Positions 8,649-11,234 of a stretch of DNA of 54,819 nucleotides are shown in pieces. The first letter of the stretch is position 1. Each line of letters starts with the position of its first letter. The stretch comes from Acidiphilium iwatense. Its GTDB lineage: Bacteria; Pseudomonadota; Alphaproteobacteria; Acetobacterales; Acetobacteraceae. The stretch spans positions 1-54,819 of the forward strand of contig NZ_JAKGBZ010000023.1 in the NCBI RefSeq assembly GCF_021556475.1, in the 5' to 3' direction. The translations under genes and the position numbers were made by a program. Under the pieces are notes generated by a model. The model saw nothing but the letters and a program-made list of their open reading frames with translations. It was not told the origin of the DNA and did not search any database.

Positions 8649-8729
8649 CGGAGAGGGATGAGCGGCGGGGTTGAAATTTCCTCATTTTCCGGTCATGCGA
8701 AACCAGGGCTTCGAGAGACCGGAGGCGGG

Positions 8730-9284
8730 ATGGCTGAGAACGGTGCGACCTCAGGCGCGCATGAGGGCGAAGAGCGGCGCGATTTCCTGAAAATCCTGTT
8801 CGGTGCGACCGCCGCCGTGGGCGCCGGGGCGATCGTGTGGTCGTTCGGCGCGGCGCTGGAGCCCGGCGAAGCGGCGCGCGACCAGTCGGTGTTCGATGTC
8901 GATCTGGCGCCGATCGAGCCGAATTCGGGAATTTCGCTCCGCTGGCGCGGCAAGCCGGTGTTCATCCGGCATCTGACCGCCGAACAGGTGAGCGCGGTCG
9001 AGGCGACGCCGATGAAGGATCTGCTCGATCCGGTGCCGGTCAAGCAGCGGGTCAGGCCGGGGCACCATCAATATGCGGTGGTGATCGGCATCTGCCCGCA
9101 TCGCGGCTGTATTCCGGTCGGCAACAAGGCGTCCGACCCGCGCGGGCCGTATGATGGCTGGCTCTGCCCGTGCCATGGCGCCGCGTTCGACGCGGTGGGC
9201 CGGGTGCGGCGCGGCCCGGCGCGGCAAAATCTGGCGATCCCGCCGTATCGGTTCGTGTCCGATACGCTGATCCGGCTCGGTTGA
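8730..9284 (+). CDS. petA: Rieske iron-sulfur subunit of a bc1-type complex (atypical)
   Basis: A 184-residue Rieske protein with a Tat-like N-terminus (RRDFLKILFGATAAVG) that also acts as membrane anchor. The [2Fe-2S] ligands are in place: C122 and H124 (CPHRGC) and C146 and H149 (CPCHG), with the disulfide pair C127/C148. In mitochondrial-type proteins the second motif continues GSHYD; here it is GAAFD (150-154), so the Ser and Tyr that hydrogen-bond the cluster and raise its potential are Ala and Phe. A lower midpoint potential is expected. The ATG at 8730 follows GGAGG; the in-frame start at 8658 would bury the Tat motif. First gene of petABC. Confidence 0.93.
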   Translation: MAENGATSGAHEGEERRDFLKILFGATAAVGAGAIVWSFGAALEPGEAARDQSVFDVDLAPIEPNSGISLRWRGKPVFIRHLTAEQVSAVEATPMKDLLDPVPVKQRVRPGHHQYAVVIGICPHRGCIPVGNKASDPRGPYDGWLCPCHGAAFDAVGRVRRGPARQNLAIPPYRFVSDTLIRLG

Positions 9285-9291
9285 GGTGATC

Positions 9292-10488
9292 ATGGACAAA
9301 TCCGAATCCGAAGCGGCGCCAGGCTGGCTGGAGACCCGCCTGCCGCTTTGCGCCGTCTGGCGCACGCAGTGGCGCGATCATCTGGTGCCTGCCAACCTGA
9401 CCCTGGTTTGGTCGTTCGGCGTGCTGGTCGCGGTGGCGCTGGGGGTGCTGACGCTGAGCGGGATCTGGCTCGGGTTTGCCTATGTGCCGACCACGCAGGG
9501 GGCGGCCTTGTCGATCGAGCGCTATACGCGCGCGGTGAATTTCGGCTGGCTGATCCGCGATCTGCACCGCGACGGGGCGACCATGCTGTTCGGCGTGGTG
9601 TTCATCGAGCTGTTTCGGGGGATTTATTACGGCAGCTACCGCAATAGGCGGGAACTTGCCTGGATCATCGAGGTGGTGCGGTTCTTCGCGTTTCTGGCGG
9701 TCGGGTTTTTCGGGTTCGCGATGACCGGCGGGGCGGTGGCCGATGCGGCGGTGACGATCATGGCGGCGCATATCGCCGCGATTCCGCTGTTCGGTTCGGC
9801 GCTGGCGCACTGGTTTCTCGGCGGTTTCATGGTCGGGTCGGCGACCGCGCCGCGCCTCGCGATGGCACATGAGACGATCGGGTTTCTGGTGCTGCTGATC
9901 GCGCTGCTCGGCTTTATGGCATCGCGCGCGGCACCGCCGGCCAATCCCGACGGAATCGCCGTGCCCGACCCGCGCGACATGGTGCCGCAATCGGCCTATG
10001 CCGGAAAATTGTTCACCGCCTTCATGATTTTCGCGCTGATTTTCGCGGTGATCGTCGCCTTCGCACCGGGGCTGGGCCAGCCGGCGGGAATGAGCCTGAC
10101 CTCGCCGATGGCGATGCCGGTGCAGCCGGTGCCGCCCTGGTATCTGCTCGGGTTTCACGGTTTGGCGCGGGCCGGGCAGAGCGCGGGCGGCGGGACGCTG
10201 CTGACGGTCGCGGCACTCGTGCTGCTGGGCGCGCTGCCCTGGCTGGATCAAGGGATCGTGGCGAGCGGGCGCTACCGGCCGCTCTATGCCGGATTCGTGA
10301 TCGTCCTGGCGATCGACTGGGTGGTGCTGTCGGTGGCGGCGGCGCAGCCGGCGACCGGGATCTGGCCGGCGGTGATCGATATCGCCACGATCTATGTTTT
10401 CGTCCATTTCATCGTCATCACGCCGCTGGTGACCATGCTGGAGCGCGCGCATCCGGTGCCGGCGCGCATCGCCAGGAGGACCGCCTGA
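9292..10488 (+). CDS. petB: Divergent cytochrome b subunit lacking heme bH ligands
   Basis: A 398-residue cytochrome b-like protein in the normal petABC position. Recognisable parts are VNFGWLIRDLHRDGAT (helix B), RGIYYGSY and a PPWY segment. Heme bL ligands H92 and H193 are present. At the exact +14 spacing, where the heme bH histidines should be, are E106 and G207. The PEWY motif of the quinol site is PPWY (281-284), and the PWGQMSFWG loop is replaced by a TGGA-containing stretch. ATG 9292 follows GAGGTGATC; a GTG at 9286 is possible. It may carry a single heme b. Whether it supports a Q cycle is doubtful. Confidence 0.88.
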   Translation: MDKSESEAAPGWLETRLPLCAVWRTQWRDHLVPANLTLVWSFGVLVAVALGVLTLSGIWLGFAYVPTTQGAALSIERYTRAVNFGWLIRDLHRDGATMLFGVVFIELFRGIYYGSYRNRRELAWIIEVVRFFAFLAVGFFGFAMTGGAVADAAVTIMAAHIAAIPLFGSALAHWFLGGFMVGSATAPRLAMAHETIGFLVLLIALLGFMASRAAPPANPDGIAVPDPRDMVPQSAYAGKLFTAFMIFALIFAVIVAFAPGLGQPAGMSLTSPMAMPVQPVPPWYLLGFHGLARAGQSAGGGTLLTVAALVLLGALPWLDQGIVASGRYRPLYAGFVIVLAIDWVVLSVAAAQPATGIWPAVIDIATIYVFVHFIVITPLVTMLERAHPVPARIARRTA

Positions 10489-11234
10489 TGCGCCGCCTGT
10501 TGTTCGCCGCCGCCGTTGCGCTGACCGCGCTCGGCCTTGGGCAATCCGCCCGCGCCGAGACGCGGACGCCGCAGAGCTTCCGGTTTCAGTCGCTGTTCGG
10601 CACCTACAACAAGGCGAGCCTGCAGGTTGGTTTTGCCGTCTATCAGGCCGATTGCGCGAGCTGCCACGGGCTGAGCCTGGTGCATTACCGCGATCTCGCG
10701 CATCTCGGCCTGAGCCCGCAGGATATCGCGGCCATCGTGTCGCACATCAAGGTGCAAAAGGGCGTCGATCCGGCGGGCAAGCCCGTGCTGGCGCCGGCGA
10801 TGGCGCGCGATGCGTTCAAATCGCCGTTCCCGGACGAAGCGGCGGCGGAGAAAAAGTTTCACGGCGCGATCCCGCCCGATCTGTCGCTGATCGAGCGGGG
10901 CCATCGGGACGGCGCGGATTTCGTTTTTTCTCTCCTGATGGGGTACCGGGCCGCACCGCCGAACGTGACGATGCCGCCGCATCATTTCTACAACATCGCC
11001 TATCCGGGCGGGCTGATCGCGATGGCGCCGCCGCTCAAGCCCGGCTCGGTCACCCTGGCCGACGGCAAGAAGCCGGACGTTCAGGCAATGGCGCATGACG
11101 TGGCGGAGTTTCTCGCCTGGACGGCCGACCCGACGCTCGACCAGCGCAAGGCGGTGGGGCTGCGGATCATTATTTTTCTGCTGATCCTGGGCGCGCTCGG
11201 CGGGTTCGCGATCAGGGCGGGACGGCGGACATGA
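10488..11234 (+). CDS. petC: Cytochrome c1
   Basis: A 248-residue cytochrome c1 with a Sec signal peptide (cleavage near ARA-ET, residue 23) and a C-terminal anchor helix (GLRIIIFLLILGALGGF). The heme c site C56-A-S-C-H60 and the likely axial Met M179 (GLIAMAPPL) are intact, as are AYPGGLIAM and MAHDVAEFLAW. It passes electrons from the Rieske protein to a soluble or membrane cytochrome c. Unlike its petA and petB partners it keeps all expected ligands. It starts at the last base of the petB stop and overlaps mtnP by ATGA. Confidence 0.94.
   Translation: MRRLLFAAAVALTALGLGQSARAETRTPQSFRFQSLFGTYNKASLQVGFAVYQADCASCHGLSLVHYRDLAHLGLSPQDIAAIVSHIKVQKGVDPAGKPVLAPAMARDAFKSPFPDEAAAEKKFHGAIPPDLSLIERGHRDGADFVFSLLMGYRAAPPNVTMPPHHFYNIAYPGGLIAMAPPLKPGSVTLADGKKPDVQAMAHDVAEFLAWTADPTLDQRKAVGLRIIIFLLILGALGGFAIRAGRRT

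Follow-up and report, generated by a model that had tools for sequence, protein, structure and literature searches.

Loss of the heme bH ligands of cytochrome b has been reported for the bc1 complexes of Acidiphilium and Acidocella (Degli Esposti et al. 2023, PMC10715153, which also cites a 2014 paper for this loss). As described in the available part of that work, Acidiphilium has no Rieske gene, the Acidocella Rieske protein is without three or four of its cluster ligands, and alterations at bH are said to be "always associated" with alterations of the Rieske protein; a linear path from quinol to cytochrome c1 was therefore excluded, and a structural role, for example stabilising Complex I, was proposed. 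The same source describes linear flow for bc1 with bH blocked by antimycin and for a cytochrome b6 mutant, which is cited there as sustaining partial photosynthetic electron flow. Among the matches listed in our literature search no further paper on bH loss in this group was found, the available portions of PMC7677001, PMC8790237 and PMC4013037 contain nothing bearing on it, and a search on PEWY together with PPWY found no paper.

The petABC genes of Acidiphilium iwatense analysed here (Table 1) lie in a stretch of 54,819 nucleotides, hereafter the window. Like the 'deranged' bc1 complexes of Acidiphilium and Acidocella, as far as these are described in the accessible text of PMC10715153, the window complex has lost the bH histidines and retains cytochrome c1, in the same taxa and the same operon, but it differs from them in that all Rieske ligands are present rather than the Rieske protein being absent or ligand-poor. 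It resembles canonical proteobacterial bc1 in gene order, sequence families and the bL, Rieske and c1 ligands, and departs from it in lacking the bH ligands, PEWY, the PWGQ loop and the Qi histidine and aspartate. With the R. capsulatus H212N mutant (PMC4330944) and the chloroplast b6 'broken Q-cycle' mutant it shares, according to the parts of those reports available, a heme bL without a working bH; these are however laboratory mutants of otherwise canonical complexes, whereas the window complex is natural, old and altered more widely. The initial annotation had taken bH loss as the possible mark of a new complex type, which does not hold for the loss alone, already published and read as degeneration (PMC10715153, available part). 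What appears to be new here, judged from the sequences compared, is a bH-less complex with all its Rieske ligands in place, a feature that the initial annotation does not mention and an exception to the published rule.

Table 1. Features of the petABC locus (positions within the window)
Feature	Position	Strand	Evidence or remark
petA, full-length Rieske iron-sulfur protein, all cluster ligands kept	8658..9284	+	TIGR01416, Pfam, PDB relatives
Rieske box I, C146-P-H148-R-G-C151, with two ligands and one Cys of the disulfide kept; T to P and L to R relative to the family	9093..9110	+	
Rieske box II, C170-P-C172-H173-G-A-A-F, with two ligands and the second Cys of the disulfide kept; Ala and Phe where the family has Ser and Tyr	9165..9188	+	
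petB, cytochrome b without heme bH ligands	9286..10488	+	Pfam, alignments; the genome's only PF00033 match
bL ligand His94 (His92 from ATG 9292), kept	9565..9567	+	Alignment
bH position 1, Glu108 (Glu106 from ATG 9292)	9607..9609	+	Alignment; genus E, T, G, A or Q, His 0/11
Qo cd1 loop, PWGQMSFWG replaced by TGGAVADAA	9724..9750	+	Alignment
His162, in the altered cd1 segment, invariant in the genus (11/11), non-His in all remaining alignment rows	9769..9771	+	Alignment
bL ligand His195 (His193 from ATG 9292), kept	9868..9870	+	Alignment
bH position 2, Gly209 (Gly207 from ATG 9292)	9910..9912	+	Alignment; genus G or T, His 0/11
PPWY instead of PEWY	10132..10143	+	Alignment
petC, cytochrome c1, CASCH and Met ligand (IAM methionine) kept	10488..11234	+	PF02167 214 bits; alignment

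Cytochrome b and cytochrome c1

The window petB matches the Pfam family Cytochrome_B (E 7.6e-35), has a reading frame that is open throughout and starts at GTG 9286 or ATG 9292, the two numberings differing by 2 residues. Counted from the ATG, the histidine pair assigned to bL and the Glu106 and Gly207 assigned to bH in the initial annotation are correct: alignments to four solved cytochromes b, ungapped in helix B in all four and in helix D in all except the 8smr row with its single one-residue gap, offer no alternative histidine at either bH position, and a 63-row alignment gives the same bL and bH columns, so that the four heme b histidines of canonical bc1 read H, E, H, G. The annotated replacement of PEWY and absence of the PWGQMSFWG loop are likewise borne out by alignment, leaving neither Qo motif (PPWY, TGGA), and the Qi histidine and aspartate are lost as well; the Qi and Qo roles are those we take these residues to have, apart from points cited to PMC10715153. 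With bH, Qi and Qo motifs all gone, electron bifurcation is very unlikely, and with it the classical Q cycle that the initial annotation had already considered incompatible with this protein. A canonical motif hidden by a frameshift was rejected on the open frame and the ungapped helix-B alignment, and a second canonical petB on a PF00033 search (E <= 0.001) of the 4.16 Mb genome (99.93% complete), in which the window petB was the sole match. An AlphaFold model built from six rows had a pLDDT of 39 and was set aside.

A petB match is present in 11 of the 13 Acidiphilium genomes, that of the window counted, and all 11 genes have lost both bH histidines and kept both bL histidines. This shared loss excludes chance, as well as the sequencing error against which the initial annotation had argued; the adaptation it favoured instead is not established, as the Qo and Qi residues are also eroded, a pattern that fits decay as well as remodelling. 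The varied residues at the genus bH positions show that these sites went on drifting after the loss. In the petB tree the 11 genes group as one clade (100/99), adjoined by the sister genus g69 (100/99), for which 38 genomes were available, 35 with a petA match and 31 with residues read (one being G197, locus L069). One or both bH ligands are gone in all 31 and 16 retain one; two g69 rows are perhaps misaligned, L157 with Leu as its second bL residue and L148 gapped where the second bH residue would stand. The g69 rows have xGGA or ADGA where PWGQ would stand, and loss of PWGQ is common to both genera. A third genus, g54, has Asn at the first bH position in two rows, and all four heme b histidines occur in the 39 remaining family rows with a full reading and in two outgroup rows. 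These readings cover the genus, the 30 best-scoring genomes and 20 chosen low- or middle-scoring ones from a family sample of 299 genomes drawn from a larger group (PF00033 in 262), and another exception may exist elsewhere. Loci L070, L073 and L077 have a partial petB that gives no full ligand reading, and L078-L080, second pieces of loci already included, were left out of the alignments.

In loci L075 and L076 of genus g30, PPWY coexists with the complete set of four heme histidines and a complete Rieske motif; by itself PPWY is therefore no mark of a dead complex. Neither petA, petB nor petC was matched in the Acidiphilium genomes G012 (99% complete) and G001 (83% complete), where a short petA anchor could evade the profile search, as happened in G002 and G007; at least one Acidiphilium species seems to have lost the complex.

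The initial annotation was also right that cytochrome c1 next door keeps its heme ligands, with both the CxxCH and the methionine motif in place. Both motifs are kept in 6 of the 10 genus sisters. The petC genes of L021, L023 and L024 retain CxxCH, and no counterpart of the Met-ligand region could be aligned in them. Cytochrome c1 may also be decaying in some lineages. The operon is flanked by coproporphyrinogen oxidase (hemF) and a phosphorylase-superfamily gene, presumably mtnP, and likewise in relatives where the contig extends. These observations bear on the idea of a remodelled complex with a single heme b, in which the Rieske/c1 arm would be fed by a non-quinol donor or a new partner and His162 would be a new catalytic or binding residue. 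The restriction of this histidine to the genus, the bL pair kept in 11/11 and the c1 motifs kept in most sisters are all in its favour; His162 is however present also in rows without a Rieske head, hence not tied to the Rieske arm, and the flanking genes suggest no obvious partner. We regard such remodelling as improbable.

Rieske proteins with and without cluster ligands

The window petA scores 161.8 bits against the proteobacterial equivalog model TIGR01416 Rieske_proteo (cut-off 97.4), matches Rieske and UCR_Fe-S_N in Pfam, and may in reality start at an internal ATG at 8730. The C-x-H and C-x-x-H ligands (C146, H148, C170, H173) and the disulfide pair C151/C172 are all present. The surroundings of the cluster have changed: given the docking and hydrogen-bonding roles that we presume for these residues of PetA, the Leu-to-Arg substitution in box I may weaken docking, and Ser-to-Ala together with Tyr-to-Phe by the cluster is predicted to lower its potential. 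The Tyr-to-Phe change is described in the available text of PMC10715153 as removing a hydrogen bond to a cluster ligand and lowering activity. The window's genome has 11 Rieske domain matches, petA among them. In the petA tree the window falls with its own genus and g69 in one clade (99/95), and for this reason petA was most likely inherited. Import from outside the group finds no support in this tree, in which long branches leave the exact placement uncertain. Within the clade the window head lies outside the set formed by the other four genus heads and g69 (88/78), a grouping that perhaps reflects fast-changing rows attracting each other.

The window complex is the only one of the 44 bH-mutated complexes read (11 from the genus, 31 from g69, 2 from g54) to have all four Rieske ligands; in the other 43 at least two of the four, or the whole head, are gone. 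Each of the 31 g69 heads is short of three or four ligands; in g54 both heads miss the two histidine ligands. Among the 10 other genus members, four have a head bearing none of the four ligands and six retain petA as an anchor only. These anchors (L018, L019, L020, L021, L022, L024) are 43-73 aa long, have a single TM helix and end at or near the petB start, and for the six genomes the published 'lacks the ISP gene' is better put as 'keeps its anchor'. The anchor frames look to be under selection in L020/L022 (dN/dS 0.13 over 73 codons) and less so in L018/L019 (0.41 over 67 codons). The ligand-poor heads of g69 (L139-L168, L060-L074) carry a near-constant replacement, G[LM]NT[GA]..C and [CS]PCDGS.YD, as though selection acted on the fold without its cluster. 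A relocated second Rieske protein in a sister was also considered; the single extra match, in G010, lies on the opposite strand to a transposase-like frame (judged by eye) and was taken as chance.

Such patterns speak for the published reading (PMC10715153, available part), a structural relic: a redox-dead membrane scaffold, stabilising for example Complex I, of which the window would hold the least decayed head, its cluster perhaps aiding folding. Anchors alone in 6 of the 11 genus genomes, the motif shared by the g69 heads, and petB dN/dS of 0.12-0.48 in five pairs of close relatives that lack a Rieske cluster make selection without redox function plausible, and the erosion of Qo and Qi points the same way. 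What a relic leaves unexplained is the window itself, with its six Cys/His, both c1 ligand motifs and the least-changed petB. We consider this explanation possible, though open to real doubt, and place it second, as the chief alternative to a linear reductase.

Selection and decay in the window lineage

Since the nearest relatives have no ligand-bearing head, dN/dS of the window petA head was replaced by a neutral simulation of the 133-codon head, in which indels were ignored and distances taken from half the pairwise dS. Of 4000 runs at each distance, those that kept all six Cys/His and acquired no stop numbered 75 at 0.20 substitutions per site, 7 at 0.33 and 1 at 0.45; the range 0.33-0.45 is roughly one half of the dS between the window and L018, for petB as for hemF/mtnP. 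Survival of the head is relevant to a further explanation, that the window petA lost its function too lately for its ligands to have been hit. Docking and hydrogen-bond residues already altered in PetA would agree with this, and a loss restricted to the tip of the branch would be compatible with the data; against it, the petB tree places bH loss before the genus split, and drift over the whole window lineage would rarely leave the head intact. We judge recent decay very improbable.

Measured in petB from the fork that joins it to its five nearest relatives, the window branch is the shortest (0.16); for these five head-less sisters the values are 0.28, 0.37, 0.49, 0.50 and 0.52, with the branching order at this fork not fixed. 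The window petB also retains more canonical residues than each of the 10 sisters (34 v 13 for L018, 41 v 10 for L022; p 1.5e-5 to 0.019); the ten comparisons have history in common and are not independent of one another. When L026, an outgroup from within the genus, is used, the asymmetry is significant against only one of five sisters (L021, p=0.024). The hemF and mtnP controls, run with outgroup L026 only, had no asymmetry. For petC the window lies below L018 (14 v 29, p=0.03), is no different from five sisters, and lies above L021, L023, L024 and L025, the last of which ends at a contig edge with gaps scored as losses. Taken at the level of sequence, these tests give moderate support to a kept function of the window complex.

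Electron transfer and the order of losses

In the window's genome coxB, which scores above the cut-off of its family, precedes coxA. The genome also has a second COX1 accompanied by a COX2-cytochrome c fusion, 17 matches to cytochrome c domains, a quinol oxidase of bo3-like type whose CyoB falls below its family cut-off, and a RuBisCO_large match; a profile search of this genome for a photosynthetic reaction centre gave no match. Given these oxidase and cytochrome c genes, reduced cytochrome c has a use. A. iwatense is described in the available part of PMC10715153 as non-photosynthetic, with Rubisco and an incomplete COX operon. The coxB-coxA pair (L116) lies at the end of contig G000:C67, where coxA runs off the contig, and the incomplete look of the operon may be an assembly break.

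We tentatively favour, at somewhat short of an even chance, an ancestral bH-less, Rieske-intact complex that would still move electrons as a linear, non-bifurcating quinol:cytochrome c reductase. A canonical bc1 ancestor would have lost the bH site, the Qi residues and PWGQ/PEWY before the genus radiated, as the petB tree suggests. Quinol or another donor would then reduce the Rieske cluster, the head would hand electrons singly to c1, and soluble cytochrome c would take them from c1 to cytochrome c oxidase; heme bL would be retained for folding or as a side acceptor, with neither bifurcation nor Q-cycle proton gain, and the activity would possibly be slow or low-yield. In the sisters the remaining redox route would also have been lost, the complex becoming a scaffold. 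For a linear reductase we count the six Cys/His, the TIGR01416 match, the petA placement, the simulation, petB retention, the c1 ligands, the oxidase genes and the precedents for linear flow described in PMC10715153 (bc1 with bH blocked, and the b6 mutant). Against it stand the lost Qo and Qi, the Rieske-box substitutions, the outgroup dependence of the petB test, the mixed petC result, the petA-tree position, the two genus genomes without petABC and a PWGQ loss held in common with g69, where the Rieske protein is ligand-poor.

Ligands are hard to regain, and those of the window Rieske protein are therefore most simply ancestral. This suggests that in the genus bH went before the Rieske centre, which most lineages lost afterwards. 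The order may have been reversed in g69, Rieske first, because Rieske ligands are lost in 31/31 and one bH histidine is left in 16. The change of PWGQ to xGGA or ADGA, found in both genera, may be older still.

It has long been asked by what means short circuits are avoided in bc1 and whether the complex is of use without bifurcation, and knock-outs made in the laboratory have served to study this. A bH-less complex that occurs in nature and keeps its Rieske centre offers a wild-type test of the question. We posit, as a working proposal with the balance leaning against it, a natural bc1 permanently without bH and the Q cycle that nevertheless acts as a linear quinol:cytochrome c oxidoreductase through Rieske and c1. 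The window complex is an exception to the rule published for acidophiles and makes the order of decay readable from living species, suggesting for the genus that bH loss preceded Rieske loss. If the proposal is true, the window complex would represent a living intermediate that preceded the scaffold-only complexes of its sisters and gave rise to them.
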